Shown here: piece by piece, positions 10,248-26,340 of the stretch
Numbering within the stretch: the first letter of the stretch is position 1
Layout: every line of letters begins with the position of its first letter
NCBI GenBank assembly: GCA_018398765.1
Contig: JAHBMJ010001785.1
Location: forward strand, 1 to 26,340
Origin: Chromera velia
Lineage: Eukaryota; Sar; Chromeraceae
Direction: 5' to 3'
DNA: 26,340 nt
The notes under the pieces: generated by a model
The model's database searches: none
Seen by the model: only the letters and a program-made list of their open reading frames with translations
Told to the model about the DNA's origin: nothing
Position numbers and translations under genes: made by a program

Positions 10248-11504
10248 TGCCCTGCGTGTGTTTGTTTTCTGCTTGTTTATTTGAGGGAGTTGCGTGGGTA
10301 CCGCTGTGAACATACAGTGTGCCACTCAGTGCTACAATATCGTTCAGTGACTGTGTGCTTATTCTTGCTCGTCGGCGAGCGCGGTTGAAGCAAGGAAGCT
10401 CGACTGCGCGCGACTGACTCCCCTTTTCGGCCTCCAGAAAGTCAACAATACAAGACGCCTCCCTGCCCACTGCTTTCTCGGAGCTGCAACGCTGCATTAT
10501 GCCATTTTGTCGGGTGTGTTCAACGAAAACAGAACAAGTGACAACGGTGCTGGTACCCGTGAAAAGAAAAACGCAGACTGGTGAGGAGTGAGTGAGTGAG
10601 TGAGTGAGTTTTAAAGTTCCTGAAGCTGTGAATGCGGGAAGGAGTGAGTAAGTCAGTCCGTGGTTGAGCGGGAGACCAGGTCACGGGTGAGGATCGAAAG
10701 GAGCGAGTGCATTTCAAGATAATAATACCAGACAACGTGCGTGTCTGCATGGTGAGAATCTGCGTGCGTATGCGTACGAGATTGGCGCCAGTTCATGCAT
10801 GTGTAACGAATACTAACGATGGTGTGTTGCCCAATTTGTTCCGGCCAAACATCCATTGCATGCGTGCATGCATACTATTGAGTAATTATTAGATGGCCCA
10901 GAACAGCTCTTTCTATCACTTCTTTGTTATGACACCTAGCATGACACTCGATCGAGTCAGACATACATGGGCCTTGTTTCAAACTATCTACTACTACTAG
11001 TGACTATCCTAGTATATATCCACTTTTAATATCTGTTAGTGACTGGTTCTATCTGGAATGGTATTTATTAAATTAATTTTTATTTTTTTTCTAGAATCTA
11101 ACTTTTCTCATTTTTCTTCAAAAAGTCTACTACTTAGTTTAGTAATTTAGTAAAAAGTACTCACAAGCTGAATATACTCTACATAATAAATTTAATTAAA
11201 TTCTTGCAATTTATTGGTGACTTAGTTTCGATATATTTATTTTTATTCTCCTTCGATCGTGTGAGATTTATGTTATTGTGTTACTTTCAATCTGTGTACG
11301 TTTTTTTCTATTATAAAAAACGAAAAAAGTTCTAGAAAAAGTTTTTTACTTAACACGGATTTAACAATCAAATTAAATATAAAAAACTTGTTTTAACAGT
11401 GTTTCTACTATGTGTTAAGAAGTTCAATCAGGTTTTGAAGCTAGTTTTCTAGCTAGTTTTAAAGTATGAATAGAACATATAACTACAAATTATAATTATT
11501 AAGA
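10248..11504. other. Intergenic, increasingly AT-rich
   Basis: No gene recognised. A GAGT microsatellite occurs around 10587-10611. TGCATG-containing palindromes lie at 10795-10872. From about 10900 the sequence becomes strongly AT-rich up to the LINE boundary near 11505. Any 3' UTR of the upstream gene should lie in the first few hundred bases. Confidence 0.5.
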
Positions 11505-11812
11505 AGAGACACAGACCCTTCCTTGCAGCGTTTGTTGACTTCAGCAAGGCTTTTGACCGAGTACCCAGAAAGAAAATGATTGACAGACTTAGAGAGGAAG
11601 GAGTCAGCGAGAAGGACGTGTGCATGATTCATTCCATGTATATGAATGTATAGGGAAGGGTGGATGGTTCGGATTGGGTCTTTCCCGAAAGTGCAGGGGT
11701 AAAACAGGGAGATCCACTTTCTCCTCTTCTTTTTCTTTTGTTTATTAATCATATTCATTCTGCTTTGAGTGTTGAAGGGAGGGAAGCTGATAACGGCTTG
11801 GATGGGGAATCA

Positions 11813-11817
11813 GATAC
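11813..11817 (+). repeat. Target-site duplication GATAC, left copy
   Basis: GATAC immediately precedes the element starting TGTGCG at 11818 and is repeated at 13656-13660. Confidence 0.7.
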
Positions 11818-12129
11818 TGTGCGAAGTTCGGCCTAGCAGCCCGAATTCTTTGGTATCCCGCCGCCTCAATCAATCGATCAGAAAATATGATACGCGTATT
11901 TCGAGAGACAGCATAAAAAATTAAGTGATACAGATTAGAATTAAACGTATGCACGCAGATCAAAAGCAGAATGTAAGATTGGACAGGTGGATAGAAGACT
12001 GCAGATATAGACCAAAGTACCAGAATAGAAAGCGGTCCAGCAGTACTAGACTTCTATGTGCGTGTGTACGAATGAGACAACTTCGGTAGGAGTATGACGA
12101 ATAGCCCTAGTAAACCCAAATTTCCCAGT
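11818..12129 (+). repeat. 5' LTR (312 bp)
   Basis: Begins TGTGCGAAG and ends TTTCCCAGT. It aligns gap-free with 13344-13655, with 14 differences. It does not end in the common CA dinucleotide. Confidence 0.85.
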
Positions 12130-12214
12130 GGTGCTCGCTGCGTCGGGCTTGAACCGTTTGCCTTCAGTTCATCAGTCTGAGACTGATTGCTTGAGCCAGC
12201 TGAGCAGGGGAAGC
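12129..12214 (-). other. Antisense tRNA-Met-like sequence / extended primer-binding site
   Basis: Read on the minus strand, this 86-nt stretch resembles a whole tRNA. In order it shows an acceptor-like GCTTCCC, a D-arm TGCTCAGCTGGCTCAAGCA, and an anticodon stem TCAGT/ACTGA (12182-12186 and 12164-12168) followed by AGG. A B-box GGTTCAAGCC (12146-12155) and a terminal GCACCA at the LTR edge complete it. The elements match the elongator tRNA-Met plan, in which TCAGTCTCAT..CTGAAGG is typical. The anticodon loop is 13 nt, CTCA-GACTGA-TGA; dropping six bases leaves CTCATGA with anticodon CAT. Acceptor and T stems pair only partly, so it is not a functional tRNA gene. Its position fits a primer-binding site. 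Confidence 0.55.
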
Positions 12215-12886
12215 AAAGAAGGCAGCATGAGCACACAACAAGAGCTGCAGTGACGGAGACGTTCTGGGTAGTTCGTTGAGCTCCCCACGACAAAAGAGTC
12301 AAAAGAAGTATTGGAGGCACCAGAGGGTTGTTTTTTCTCCAGCGATTGAGCCGGCCATAGATGCATGGACCGCAATATTATACTGCATGTGGAACAGTGA
12401 GAGCTGGATTGTTGGGGACTTGGGAAGAGAAAAGGAGCAAGAGACCCTGTTGACAAGAGCCTCTCCGTATGAAGCAAGAAGGGGGAGTGAGCAAAGCTGC
12501 CCGGCCGTCCCCTGTATGGAGGAACCATGGGGGAGCCTTGCACCAGCAGTAAGAGAAGAGAAGTATCGGTGACCTGGACTCTATTGGACTTCATGCAGAG
12601 CAGTGAGTAAGAGGACGGTAGTAAACTAAGTGGACACGGGACAACAGCTTAGCAAGCGAAACTGAGTTGCAGACGAGGGAGAGAGGAAGGGAAAGGGGGT
12701 TTGAATAGACTGAAATGCAGTAGACCGACAGTGCGAGAACAGGGACTCCATGTTTATAGGCCAGGTGGCGGAGATAAAAAGGGGTACGAAAGGACTCGCT
12801 CTGTAACTGCACTAATGATCACTGACAGCATAATGTTCCCAACGACGTCCACTCTTACATAGAAAATGTAGTTGCTTGTTAAGTTT

Positions 12887-12926
<40 letters not shown>

Positions 12927-13343
12927 TCAGAGAGGAAGTGAGTGCCAGGAGTGAGGGGGTCTGCGCGAGCGTTGGTATCAATCAAGCCTTCGTCACGGCA
13001 TTCCAGTCACTCACCCAGCAACTTCAAGCATTGACAGCTCTGTCTGTACTCCATGAGTGAGGACACAGAGATTCTGGGGATGAGTGAAGGCAAGAAGACT
13101 TGAACGGTATTCCATTAGCTCTGACTGCTCTTGCCCAGAGAGTTCGGCGGCTCAGAGTATCTGGTGAAAGCCTGAAAGTATAGAAGAAAAAAGCAGCCAA
13201 CCAGCAATAGGAAAGCACGACTGCAGCTTTGGATGACCTCAGGACGGACAACGAAGATTCCGTAGCGTGTGATGCTATCAAGAAAGGCAAGAAAAATAAG
13301 ACAGATAGCTAGGGGAATTGATGAGTCGCCGGGATAGGGGGTT
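12215..13343. other. Non-coding interior of the LTR element
   Basis: No domain is recognised in any frame. The longest plus-strand frame (12276-12572, 98 residues) has no gag-like zinc knuckle. A (GA)n microsatellite occupies 12890-12924. The polypurine-like tract lies at 13331-13341. Confidence 0.6.
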
Positions 13344-13655
13344 TGTGCGAAGTTTGGCCTAGCAGCCCGAATTCTTTGGTATCCCGCCGCCTCAATCAAT
13401 CGATTAGAAAATACGACACGTGCATTTTGAGAGACAGCATAAAAAATTAAGCGATACAGATCAGAATTAAACGCATGCATGCAGATCAAAAGCAGAATGT
13501 AAGATTGGACAGGTGGATAGAAGACTGCAGATATAGACCAAAGTACCAGAATAGAAAGCGGTCCAGCAGTACCAGACTTCTATGTGCGTGTGTACAAATG
13601 AGACAACTTCGGTAGGAGTATGACGAATAGCCCCAGTAAACCCAAATTTCCCAGT
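13344..13655 (+). repeat. 3' LTR (312 bp)
   Basis: Gap-free match to 11818-12129 (offset 1526), followed directly by the GATAC duplication at 13656-13660. Confidence 0.85.
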
Positions 13656-14950
13656 GATACGGATGAAAGACAGAAGGGGGGAGAATGCGAAGAGAGGAGG
13701 GAGGAGAGTGAAACAACGGAGCAGCGACCCCGCATCACTGAGGAGGTAAGATTGGTGGACTTACTGCTTGAGAGCATAGGTTGCGCAGACGATCTTGTTA
13801 TTTTTGCTCACTCTTCTTCTGACCTGCAGTGACGTTTGGACCGTTTGGCCTCTTATTATCAGGAACATGGGTTGAAAGTGAATTTAAAGAAAACAAAAGT
13901 TCTTGCACTCTTAGGCTCAGGAAGGGAAATAAAAGGGGAAGTGACTTTTGAAGGGAAGACAGTTGAATGTGTAGAGAGCTATAAATACCTTGAGTGTCGT
14001 GTGTTTGAGGGAGGGAACCCAAGAAAGTCAGTCAAGGACCGACTTGAAAGTGCTGAACGCTGTTTGGGGGTAGTGATGGGCACTTGTTCATCCTTAGGTC
14101 CTTTACTCCCTCGATGCAAAGTTCGTTTACTGCAGGCGCTCTGGGAGCCGGTGGCAATGTACTCGCTGGAAGCCTTGCCGGTAAGTCAGAGAGATATCGT
14201 TGCACTTGATACATTGCAGCTTCGATTTATGCGCTGGATATTCCGTTTGCCCTATAACTCTTTCAAGGTGCCAACTTTGGTTTCGGTTGGTGTGCGTCCT
14301 ATGAGAGAGATCCTTTCTTGTCGGTTGGGAGAGTTCATAGGAAGCATAAAGAGAACAGAAAGGGAGGTTCCCCGGGCAGTCTGGGATGTATGGCATAGAT
14401 CGCTGACCCCGGTATGAGGCCAATTCAGCCAGTAGCATGCTTCAAACAATCGCACCAGATCTTTTGAGAAAAGAAAACCAGAGAGAGAGAAACGGAACGA
14501 ATAAATGGACACTCAGGCAGAAAGCGAGGGAAAAGGAAGCCTCAGAATGGTTGTTGGAATGGTTGACTTCAAGACCCGTCGGCGAGTATAGGCTCACCCG
14601 TTCATGTGGCATCTATCTACACAACTCCCGACTGAGTAATTTTTAGATAGAGAACCGATCGTACCAGCGTCTGGCTATATTGCTTTTAGTGGGAAGGGTT
14701 AGAAAGGGGTGAAGTTACACAGTTCAATTGCGTACTCTGCCTCGCTCCCTCTTGTCTGGTAATTCTCTTTTCACCTCTCTCCTTCGAGCATATGCTGATG
14801 CGGGAAAGAGATACGGTGGATCCTATGAAGAACACTGTATTCACTGTCCTGCAGTCAAACTGTCAAAGGTAAAAATGTATTCACTGTCCTACATCGATTG
14901 TCTGCATGCGTACGAACAGAGCAGCTTAGATCCAAACTTTATTTGCTGGT

Positions 14951-15731
14951 AGAGAAAGTGAAAGAGAGAACAGGAATCGGTGAAAGGGTCTGCAGAGCAA
15001 GATGAACTGCTGCAGCTGGGGGAAGAGGTATCGGGGAAGAAGACACATATGTAAGAGAGCTCGTTTCATTCATTGTGGACCGGGAGCCGAAGAAGGCAAG
15101 TACACTGATCGAAGCTTGTCTGAAATGAGTACACGCACGTCTTGTGTGGTTGTTCAGCCTTTAGCTTCAACCTAGGCTACGGAGGGTCGTGGTTGTTCAT
15201 ATTCATGCGGAAGCAGGCTAAGCTGCGGCGGTTTGCTCCTTTTGTTTACAACTGCATGTATGGGTTGCCATTTGTCTCTGCTTTCAGAGACCCTAGGCTT
15301 AACCACAATTAAGTAAGTAAGTACATCCATGATAAAAGAACTAGTAAAAGAATCGAATGCACTCTTTCATTCTGCATATAGAAGTGCACACATTGCGAAC
15401 CTAGTTGCCAACCTTGCAAGCTAGACAAAAGAACATCACTGCAGTTCAATATCTTCTTGTAAGCCGAGCTGAATTAGTGTAGAGCAGTGCGTACTGTAAT
15501 AATGTGTGCCATGGGGGTCCCAGTTGCTGCTGAGGGCCAGACACCTCTGGTTGGGCTTCCTTCTTGCCACTCCTGAGACAAAGAGACTCCACGCACCCCT
15601 TCACAAGCGACAGAAAGCTCTGCACAAACAGAAACAGGGCCTCCATGCAATGCGAATTCCAAATCGGCCACCAATCCATGTGTGAACGTTCAAATCTAGG
15701 TTACAGTGAGGATGTCACCTCTCGGAAAACC
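14951..15731. other. Possible LINE 3' UTR, then intergenic
   Basis: No coding frame is supported. An AAGT/TAAG repeat at 15309-15323 resembles the short tandem tails of some LINEs. Beyond it, 15330-15731 is unassigned and may hold the 3' UTR of the minus-strand gene that ends at 15732. Confidence 0.35.
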
Positions 15732-23218: not shown

Positions 23219-25351
23219 ATGGAAGAGGCACAAGACCGGAGGAGACGGGACCGAGAGGTCCAAAAATCTGAAGAGTCCGGTGGAGCTGTGTGGTACCATC
23301 CAGAGACGCTTGGCCGAGTAGTTCAATCGCTAAAATTGCCTTTTTTGTCATCGACGCAGTCCAATTCGGCTGCTGCTGTGAGTCCCTTAACGCTCTCTGT
23401 CTGCGGCCTCGATCCGCAGCGTCCAGACGAGGACACGGACCGTCCTCGGAAGTCCTCAGACCACACATCATCGCATGATTTTCCTCCCGCGGACTGGTCA
23501 CACAGTTCAGGGTACAATGACAGTCAACGGCCGGACGACATTTTTCTGTCGCGACCCGTGAATCACGAAATTGTTCCAAGCAGCCAGGTGGCTGTTTGTG
23601 GCATGGCGTGTCGTTTTCCGGGTTCGAGCAGTTCGCCCTCGGAGTTCTGGGAGGCCCTTGTGAGTGGGAGGGACTGCTGCGGGCCCATTCCTCGCAGCAG
23701 GTGGAACCACGATCTGGTGTTCTCCCCCGACCCCGACGCCCCCGGAAAGGCGTACGCGCGGGAGGGCGCGTTCATCGAGGGGGTAGAGCTCTTCGACAAC
23801 GCCTTCTTCGGCATCTCTGCCGCAGAGGCCGCTCAGATGGACCCGCAACAGAGGCATATGCTCGAGGTCTCCTGGGAGGCGTTTGCCCATTCGGGGCTTC
23901 GAAAGGAGGACCTTGAGGGGTCCTCCACTGCCGTTTTTGTGGGGTGCACCAATTTCGACTGGGTCAAAAGATCCCAGCAGTGCGTGTCCCCTGTGGTGTC
24001 CTCCATCGGTAGTCTGTCCTACACAGGCGAGTCCTCCTGTCTGCTTGCCAACAGAATCTCCAGAGTCCTCGACTTGACGGGCCCCTCCATGACTATCGAT
24101 ACTGCGACCTCTGCGTCGCTGGTAGCGCTGGATTGTGCGTTTTCTGCCATCAGCCTCGGCAGGTGTGTGCGGGCGTTATCGGGAGGTGTGAACCTGATGC
24201 TGTCCCCGCAGCCGTTCGTTGCATTCTCCCGAACTCGCATGCTGTCACCCGACAACAGATGCAAAACGTTCGACGCGAGTGCGAACGGATATGTGCGGGG
24301 GGAGGGGGTGGGTGCAGTGCTCCTTGAAAGTTTGGAGACGGCAGAGCGCAACAAGAGGACGGTGCTGGCAGTGGTGAGGGGGACGGCAGTGAACCACGTC
24401 GGTTTTTCTTCGTCTTTGACAGCACCGAAGAGCAGTGCACAAGCGGCATTGATTCGGTCCGCCCTTGTCAGCGCCCGCGTTCGGCCCTCTGACGTTTCGT
24501 TTGTTGAGACTCACGGGACGGGGACGCGAATGGGAGACCCTGCAGAGTTTGCAGCTCTGCGGGAGGTGTATGGTGAGGGGAGAGGGTCGGAGAGTCCCCT
24601 CGTTTTGGGGGCTGTGAAGACGAACATCGGTCACCTGGAGGGGGCGGCGGGTATTGCGGGTTTCATCAAGCTCGTGCTGGTGCTTCAGCATCGGGCGGCG
24701 CCCCCGAACCTGCACCTGAAGACTCTGAACCCTCACCTGGACGTCGATGGATTCCCCGTCGTGTTCCCGAAAGAGAAAACAGCCCTCTCCGCCGGATTGG
24801 AGGGGGAAAGGGAAGGGGGGGCTCTGCTCGGTGCCGTCTCGTCCTTCGGCTTCGGGGGGGCGAACGCGCACGTGGTCGTTGAGGCTTTCCGGGGAAGTCA
24901 CCGAGAGGGTGCTGGGGCCTGCCGTGCGCTCCCTGCCGATGTGTGCGAGCCCTGTGTGTGGCTCTGGGAGAGGTTCCCCCTGCCTCCCACGCGAGATGCC
25001 ATTATAGACCCCCAGAACAATGCAGACTGCCTGGCTCTCCGCCGTCGTGAGGGGGGAAGTGACGGATCGGAGTCTCCGCTGTCTGCCTCAAGGTCGACTG
25101 CAGCTGCGTCGTTGTTTGCGGATCCTCAGAAGGTCAGCAGAAAGAAAAGCATGCACAACAAAAGGGAAAGGGACTTGACGTATGCAACTCTAGAAAGTCG
25201 TCGGTGTAGAGTTTTCCCATGAGCTTGAAATGTCCATGGGACTCAAAAACGCTCCTTTAATGAGACGTTTGTGTTGATCACTCGTTTGACCCTCCCCTCC
25301 TCCCCTCTCTTCTTGTCTGTGTGTGTGTGTGTGCGTGTGTGTGCGTGCGTG

Positions 25352-25421
<70 letters not shown>

Positions 25422-26340
25422 CAGGTTGAGGAGCTGACGCTCGAGGCAGTCCGGAGAGTTTCGAAGAACGGCCCCCACGCAGAGGTCCCCATGGACGCTC
25501 CCCTCTACGACCTTGTCGACTCCCTGGGGGCAGAGGAGCTCTGTAGGGTCTTGTCAGACACACTTTATCCCCTCGTGGTTTCCCCCAAAATGCTCTTTGA
25601 CCATCCCAACGTACTCGCCCTCACTCACTTTCTCTCAGACAAACTCCGCACCCTCTGTCCACGCATGACAAGAGGAACACACAGTCCCCAGAGCAACTTC
25701 AGATCACCCCAGACAAGTGAGAACGCCAGAACACCCACCCCAGAGTCTCCTGCGAGTGCACGAAGCTGTGCTCAGTATGACTCCCAGCCTCGCACACCAC
25801 CTAGACCAGCCGTCTCCTTCTTTGCCCCCGCGCCATGCGAGAATAAGCAGATGGCTGTTTGTGGTATGGCGTGTCGTTTTCCGGGTTCGAGCAGTTCGCC
25901 CTCGGAGTTCTGGGAGGCCCTTGTGAGTGGGAGGGAGTGCTGCGGGCCCATTCCTCGCAGCAGGTGGAACCACGATCTGGTGTTCTCCCCCGACCCCGAC
26001 GCCCCCGGAAAGGCGTACGCGCGGGAGGGCGCGTTCATCGAGGGGGTAGAGCTCTTCGACAACGCCTTCTTCGGCATCTCTGCCGCAGAGGCCGCTCAGA
26101 TGGACCCGCAACAGAGACACATGCTTGAGGTCTCATGGGAGACTCTGCACTCTGCAGGTTTCCACTCTCGTGAGTCTCTGAAGGAAAGAGAGGGGGAGAC
26201 TGGAGTCTTCATCGGGGCCTTCAATGGGGATTGGTCAGCCCGTAAGTGGGAGGTGGCAGGGGAGAAGGGGACCAGAAAGCTATCAGGCTTGGCAGCTCTG
26301 AACGCTTTGAGTTCAACAGGTGAGAGTGTCTCGATTATTT
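23219..26340 (+). CDS. Modular type I polyketide synthase, 5' part (KS0-ACP-KS)
   Basis: Exons are 23219-25132 and 25425 to the window edge, joined in phase 0 by a 292-nt intron (donor GTCAGC, acceptor (TG)nCAG). The first ~120 residues are unassigned and basic/Ser-rich. Ketosynthase 1 (about 122-560) has MDPQQRHMLE, catalytic His432 (VETHGTGT), His472 (NIGHLEG) and the GFGGANAH end. The nucleophile motif reads DTATSAS, with Thr297 where DTACSSS has Cys. A post-KS linker (WLWERFPLP) follows. After the intron an acyl-carrier domain carries DSLGAEEL, its Ser being the phosphopantetheine site, and LFDHPNVLAL. Then a Ser/Pro linker and ketosynthase 2 begin, cut off before its active site. No acyltransferase lies between KS1 and ACP. 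Role: assembly of a polyketide or very-long-chain fatty acid, starter handling by KS1 (inference). The ATG at 23219 is the first in this open frame. Confidence 0.88.
23590..23878 (+). repeat. Near-identical ketosynthase tract, copy 1
   Basis: Aligns gap-free with 25853-26141 (offset 2263). There are six differences in 289 bp, and only one (23674) between 23603 and 23853. Similarity falls abruptly after the VSWE codons. Confidence 0.85.
25317..25421 (+). repeat. (TG)n microsatellite with GC interruptions at a 3' splice site
   Basis: About 100 nt of TG repeat with scattered GCG interruptions runs into GCAG (25421-25424), the acceptor of polyketide synthase exon 2. Confidence 0.85.
25853..26141 (+). 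repeat. Near-identical ketosynthase tract, copy 2
   Basis: Partner of 23590-23878, at the start of ketosynthase 2. The single change in the central 250 bp turns GAC (Asp) into GAG (Glu) at 25935-25937. Confidence 0.85.

Follow-up and report, generated by a model that had tools for sequence, protein, structure and literature searches.

C-to-T changes at CpG and CpA in a short LTR retrotransposon and in most dispersed repeats compared with it

Introduction

What process leaves the two long terminal repeats (LTRs) of one short retrotransposon different only by transitions, all of them at CpG or CpA and nearly all C/T on the same strand? The question was raised by a first-pass annotation of a 26,340-nt stretch of DNA (the window, that is, the whole stretch analyzed), which took the pattern to resemble repeat-induced point mutation (RIP) or deamination of methylated cytosine and offered cytidine-deaminase editing of single-stranded cDNA for the strand bias. 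When other LTR pairs, element interiors, a host repeat, and tandem repeats are compared, the one-strand story drops out and the CpG-plus-CpA decay of dispersed repeats stays.

Anatomy of the element

The element is a non-autonomous LTR retrotransposon that inserted once, in an older dispersed repeat. The features are as follows.

11501–15323, plus strand: host repeat, older, dispersed, and unclassified (all-against-all comparison; homology over 11501–11817 and 13656–15323)
11813–11817, unstranded: target-site duplication, 5′ copy, GATAC (read directly; empty-site comparison)
11818–12129, plus strand: 5′ LTR, 312 bp, TGTG...CAGT (self-BLAST and pairwise alignment; homologous LTRs elsewhere in the genome)
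12129–12146, plus strand: probable tRNA primer-binding site, starting TGGTGCTCGC (directly after the 5′ LTR, with a leading TGG)
12130–13343, plus strand: interior, 1214 bp, apparently non-coding (frame scan; alignment with ten other copies)
13331–13341, plus strand: probable polypurine tract, GGGATAGGGGG (read directly, just 5′ of the 3′ LTR)
13344–13655, plus strand: 3′ LTR, 312 bp, with 14 transitions relative to the 5′ LTR (self-BLAST and pairwise alignment)
13656–13660, unstranded: target-site duplication, 3′ copy, GATAC (read directly; empty-site comparison)

The first base of the probable primer-binding site (12129) is also the last base of the 5′ LTR. With a TGG-starting candidate primer site after the 5′ LTR and a purine tract before the 3′ LTR, the sense of the element is the plus strand; similar purine runs also lie 5′ of the 3′ LTR in the other LTR pairs inspected. 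The longest stop-free frame of the interior found in the frame scan has 158 codons, on the minus strand, and, judged by frame length alone, the element is apparently without evident gag-pol coding capacity.

The empty site is seen in all 11 host-repeat copies compared, where both flanks abut. They overlap by exactly 5 bp in seven copies and by 3–4 bp in the other four, because the end of the alignment is trimmed there. In the genome search with the host repeat, 40 of 181 candidates were scored, and the 39 besides the window copy are 92–94% identical; its 193-aa frame has no Pfam match. Duplications of 5 bp also surround two LTR pairs of the same subfamily (AATGT at C3795 and TATGG at C3608) and therefore place the LTR limits at TGTG...CAGT. 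We inspected the flanks of the C94 LTR pair and found no target-site duplication there. The target duplication directly follows CAGT, and two bases past the usual CA seem to be retained at the U5 end; no extra base precedes the TG of the U3 end. In the second subfamily, the LTR ends with GAGT at the position matching CAGT.

A genome search with the LTR finds similarity at 32 places. The LTRs fall into two subfamilies, of ∼312 and ∼280 bp; pairs occur at 12 places including the window, and two of the pairs are partial (C1179, ∼119 bp aligned, and C637, ∼91 bp aligned). In the copy at C3562 (L024, 1438–2592), a 577-bp perfect direct tandem duplication is present within the element, possibly an assembly artefact. 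A search of the genome with the primer-site pattern gives 11 places, six of which are element copies, and establishes no tRNA gene. The other five (C135:4384, C1235:30592, C1436:71173, C3489:18804, and C3753:62423) share GGTCCAAG and could be tRNA genes or belong to a different element family. In the 26,340-nt window, Rfam gives no match at gathering score and ARAGORN finds nothing. The LTR pair itself is ordinary.

The fourteen differences

The first-pass counts are all confirmed. In the gap-free alignment of 11818–12129 with 13344–13655, the 312-bp LTRs differ at 14 sites by transitions only, seven at CpG and seven at CpA, with none at CpT or CpC; on the plus strand, 13 read C/T and the remaining one G/A, and the T states are distributed as eight in the 5′ LTR and five in the 3′ LTR. 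The single G/A difference is at a CpG, with its A in the 3′ LTR, and the other CpG differences are six C/T. A fifteenth mismatch (12131/13657) is outside the LTRs, in flanking sequence.

The other LTR copies of the 312-bp subfamily most often carry C (or G, where the difference is G/A) at 12 of the 14 sites, and therefore the changes are mainly C-to-T and not T-to-C; of the remaining two sites, one most often has T and one A, and several CpG sites are mixed. That all 14 should occur at CpG or CpA has a probability of 0.015, given the 74% share of these contexts among the transitions of 16 other LTR pairs; the lack of transversions among 14 differences has p = 0.26.

Seven of the 14 sites also differ within the C94 pair (p = 0.04, taking the number of sites as approximately 45). 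This fits hot sites common to the two pairs. We considered whether the LTR differences could be old variants imported by recombination; the sites common with the C94 pair are explained equally well by hot sites.

Strand

Against an even strand split, the 13:1 ratio of the window pair has p = 0.0018; once context opportunities are allowed for, a C/T share of 0.503 is expected, and 13 or more of 14 then has a probability of 0.00098. Taken as the most extreme pair, it has a family-wise p of 0.046 among the 12 family pairs and of 0.039 among all 17, both computed with a pooled share that includes the window pair itself. The other 11 family pairs contain 100 C/T and 84 G/A, four LTR pairs from integrase-bearing stretches 14 and 18 in the element sense, and one further LTR pair, of which the sense is not known, 21 and 20. 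Pooled, these 16 other pairs are without strand bias (135 C/T vs. 122 G/A, p = 0.45; heterogeneity p = 0.41). Two other young pairs, with few changes, are lopsided in opposite senses (C3562 with 6:1 and C752 with 1:6).

The interior of the element offers a second comparison. Had it changed at the LTR rate, the interior would have gathered about 27 changes since insertion, and 24 are seen; since the number is near expectation, an element-wide bias should show in the interior. The private changes comprise 14 C>T and 10 G>A (five and six at CpG/CpA), mildly C-rich relative to the available sites (P = 0.087). The strand split differs between LTR and interior (p = 0.03; at CpG/CpA, p = 0.02). For LTR and interior together, the C-strand excess of this element has p = 0.001, which makes chance a somewhat uneasy explanation of the strand bias. 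The most likely origin of the 13:1 split is, nevertheless, sampling combined with shared hot sites and a post-hoc choice of the pair.

A cytidine deaminase acting on one strand (cDNA, transcript, or non-template strand) at or after insertion would produce such a split and also the joint excess of LTR and interior. We consider it highly improbable, with the interior at 14:10 overall and 5:6 at CpG/CpA, and with no consistent bias across the 16 other LTR pairs. Editing of the minus-strand cDNA yields G-to-A on the sense strand, the opposite of the observed C-to-T. The 5′ contexts preferred by AID/APOBEC enzymes are TC, CC, or WRC; here, the base 5′ of the changed C has no consistent effect, with rates in the host repeat of 0.047 for AC, 0.053 for CC, 0.047 for TC, and 0.045 for GC, and in the interiors of 0.055 for GC and 0.078–0.084 for the others. 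An APOBEC_N search of the genome gives no match, and control genomes are silent too. The proposed cDNA deamination was thus abandoned: wrong strand, symmetric interior, symmetric other LTR pairs, and no 5′ context.

Context in LTR pairs, interiors, and the host repeat

With the copies aligned and tabulated by context and strand, as the first-pass annotation had proposed, the CpG/CpA bias recurs and the one-strand bias is absent elsewhere. In the 11 other family LTR pairs, both strands counted, the changed sites are 66/330 at CpG, 68/451 at CpA, 31/406 at CpT, and 19/234 at CpC. The change rates per site in 11 element interiors are, in the same order, 0.136, 0.093, 0.062, and 0.039; in 12 copies of the host repeat, they are 0.088, 0.070, 0.028, and 0.026. 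Thus C-to-T at CpG and at CpA is about two to three times as frequent as at CpT and CpC in LTR pairs, interiors, and host repeat, and alike on both strands. Relative to CpT plus CpC, CpA is raised 2.6-fold in the host repeat (p = 2e-18) and 1.8-fold in the interiors (p = 2e-7), with both p values optimistic since the copies compared are related.

The 12 host-repeat copies contain 457 C>T or G>A changes, 36 reverse transitions, and 53 transversions. The changes are symmetric between strands (176/3760 C sites and 281/5807 G sites). Adjacent changes are on the same strand in 207 of 395 cases (null 0.539, p = 0.74), which indicates no clustering, and there is no per-copy strand heterogeneity (p = 0.64). 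The corresponding values for heterogeneity and same-strand clustering are p = 0.13 and p = 0.39 in the interiors, and p = 0.91 and p = 0.99 in the LTR copies. The load per host-repeat copy is overdispersed (variance/mean 3.2). With contexts read from the other copies, CpG and CpA are raised in the host repeat whatever the third base. CHG methylation was considered and rejected: CTG shows no excess over other CpT in the host repeat (p = 0.68).

Among 20 distinct further repeat pairs (23 rows minus one identical pair and two repeated rows), CpG and CpA both exceed CpT and CpC in 15 and not in five. One 4355-bp pair, for example, has 159 transitions and eight transversions, with 59/474 at CpG, 51/669 at CpA, 23/671 at CpT, and 26/618 at CpC. 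The five exceptions include two rows of an old pair of 78–83% identity, richest in CpT and with many transversions. The first-pass annotation held that transversions, or a lack of CpA/CpG bias, in other LTR pairs would speak against its reading. The former do occur, with at least one transversion in eight of the 16 other LTR pairs; the bias persists, CpG and CpA making up 74% of the transitions. The CpG/CpA context bias is real, robust, and shared by most dispersed repeats compared. A 396-bp repeat pair in L042 (6288–6671/7789–8184) has 41 differences, all transitions, with 14 at CpG and 16 at CpA; it is possibly another short non-autonomous LTR element.

Tandem repeats and other controls

In seven tandem repeats, the pattern is absent. 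They contain 242 transitions and 188 transversions, against 493:53 in the host repeat; CpA is the lowest context (42/579), and the ratio of CpA to CpT plus CpC is 0.58. The counts come mostly from three arrays (L028, L040, and L034), in which neighboring copies are not independent; the 114-bp array is possibly coding, and stretches around integrase hits are the source of six of the seven, so that some may belong to transposons. Without the CpG/CpA pattern in the tandem repeats, this control, small and imperfect, suggests that the process targets dispersed transposons and not all repeated DNA.

Four other repeats were kept outside the tandem count. The local repeat of L009 (3519/3824) is intermediate, with 34 transitions and seven transversions (CpG 11, CpA 9, CpC 9, and CpT 5). 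The 5177 repeat of L013 has 13 transitions and six transversions, the armadillo repeat of the window, which is coding, 16 and 17, and the ketosynthase duplicate of the window five and two. In the latter gene, a 294-bp stretch (23585–23878) occurs again 2.3 kb downstream (25848–26141) with 97.6% identity, either as a partial gene duplication or as an assembly effect.

A genome-wide mutation bias, in which a C before a purine mutates more and the repeats only reveal it, with no direction toward transposons, would give the same context ranking in most dispersed repeats examined, as is observed. The intermediate L009 repeat is compatible with it, as is the ketosynthase duplicate (23585/25848), in which there are too few differences to tell. 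Such a bias is nonetheless unlikely: the seven tandem repeats are opposite for CpA and have many transversions, and the host-repeat transition rates alone lead to ∼7% G+C at equilibrium, vs. 50% in the window.

Methyltransferase and SRA genes

A PF00145 profile search of the six frames of the genome gives four matches on three contigs (seven candidates scored). For the gene on C3982 and three pieces on C1092, the best structure matches are Dnmt2/TRDMT1; for the piece on C675, the nearest solved relative is also Dnmt2, weakly (E 0.035). For the neighboring frame on C675, no Pfam family is found and no solved relative is convincing. Two of the PF00145 proteins match the bacterial dcm model, below its cut-off. 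Enzymes of the Dnmt2 class mostly methylate tRNA. This is also reported for Dnmt2 of Plasmodium (PMC9778586). Among the PF00145 matches, we recognized no DNMT1, DNMT3, DNMT5, or RID-type gene, and a gene broken into very small exons could have escaped the search. C2797 (69898–70705) encodes an SRA domain in two neighboring frames that continue one another; the ∼400 bp that split it look like an intron. In other organisms, SRA-type domains are readers of 5-methylcytosine.

A RIP-like system would recognize duplicated DNA and mutate it in bursts at CpA and CpG. The changes are indeed mostly C-to-T, CpA-rich, and not found in the tandem repeats tested, and the overdispersed load of the host-repeat copies would suit bursts. 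We regard it as very unlikely, since strand tracts and per-copy strand heterogeneity are lacking and no RID-type gene is recognized among the PF00145 matches. Over the window, CpA is not depleted and TpA is not raised (observed/expected 1.11 and 0.57, with 1.14 and 0.76 in the element); the 5′ LTR alone is borderline (0.96 and 1.06). LTR pairs diverge by very different amounts, the lowest being 1.4%, and the more divergent ones tend to have more transversions (Spearman 0.44, p = 0.08). Strict RIP was rejected, as there are no strand tracts and no RIP-like dinucleotide ratios over the window, and no RID-type gene is recognized. What stands of the first-pass reading, RIP-like or methylcytosine-deamination-like, is its description of the spectrum, C-to-T at CpG and CpA, which recurs in LTR pairs, interiors, and host repeat.

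Discussion

We favor, with a probability of about 0.6, the reading that the element and most dispersed repeats compared decay by C-to-T changes at CpG and CpA, on both strands, linked to 5-methylcytosine. The non-autonomous LTR retrotransposon inserted once into the older dispersed repeat and has since acquired C-to-T changes in these two contexts, as have most other dispersed repeats compared; over many copies the two strands are hit alike, and other neighboring bases matter little. In transposons, 5-methylcytosine is probably present, probably at CpG and CpA, and probably placed there by a methyltransferase, comparable to Dnmt3- or Dim-2-type enzymes; its deamination or misrepair would result in slow decay. 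A strand-symmetric C-to-T excess at methylatable contexts is indeed found in transposons (LTR pairs, interiors, and host repeat). Several observations count against a decay linked to 5-methylcytosine: only Dnmt2-like methyltransferase matches are recognized; the CpG observed/expected of 0.77 in the window is a mild depletion, weaker than heavy CpG methylation predicts; and five of the 20 repeat pairs are off-pattern, with the host-repeat loads overdispersed. We read the decay as neither RIP proper nor APOBEC action.

In a bolder and decidedly unlikely version, a photosynthetic alveolate-like genome would mark its transposons with CpG and CpA methylation through a Dnmt2 paralogue or an unrecognized methyltransferase, together with an SRA reader, and RIP-like mutational loss would thus occur outside fungi. 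The interest of the repeat-wide spectrum lies in the recognition of Dnmt2-like methyltransferase matches alone and in the possible chromerid host. The CpG-plus-CpA decay deserves testing as a possible mark of methylated transposons, and through it one could directly test whether transposons of non-fungal protists are mutated or methylated in such a manner. Among the papers listed by searches of the open-licence PMC literature, no title or abstract start describes cytosine methylation or such decay in chromerid algae, and the string "methylat" is absent from the main text of the chromerid genome paper (PMC4501334).

Comparison with known systems

In its anatomy, the element is like the non-autonomous LTR retrotransposons of the TRIM/LARD type, with an LTR pair, a 5-bp duplication, a probable primer site and purine tract, and no evident coding; unlike in these, the LTR ends with CAGT and not with CA. 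Hypermutation of the APOBEC3 type would share with it cytosine deamination and the one-strand skew of one LTR pair; the skew is on the wrong strand for cDNA editing, comes with no 5′ context, and is not element-wide.

For the dinoflagellate Symbiodinium, one paper describes a retrotransposon-rich algal genome with Dnmt5, Dnmt6, and retrotransposon-borne DNMTs in high copy number, and some retrotransposon classes with lowered CpG (PMC5890265). Here, in contrast to that description, there are just four PF00145 matches, nearest to Dnmt2.

In fungal RIP, as presented in three papers (PMC2621366, PMC7882544, PMC12543289), repeats gather C-to-T changes with a preference for CpA in most fungi. The repeats compared here are alike in C-to-T with a CpA preference, with CpG at least as high; they differ from the RIP so described in the absence of strand tracts, of RIP-like dinucleotide ratios over the window, and of a recognized RID-type gene, and the host is apparently no fungus.

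In the fungus Zymoseptoria, according to PMC8016269, Dim2 increases C-to-T mutation at CpA in methylated repeats, a gradual process that takes place during mitosis; >95% of the mutations are C-to-T and >98% of these are at CpA, with CpG spared. Unlike in that account, CpG is here as high as CpA or higher, and no Dim2-type gene is recognized. The C-to-T changes at CpA in repeats are alike in both, with methylation known in the fungus and probable here, and the Dim2 mutation so described shows that such a process exists.
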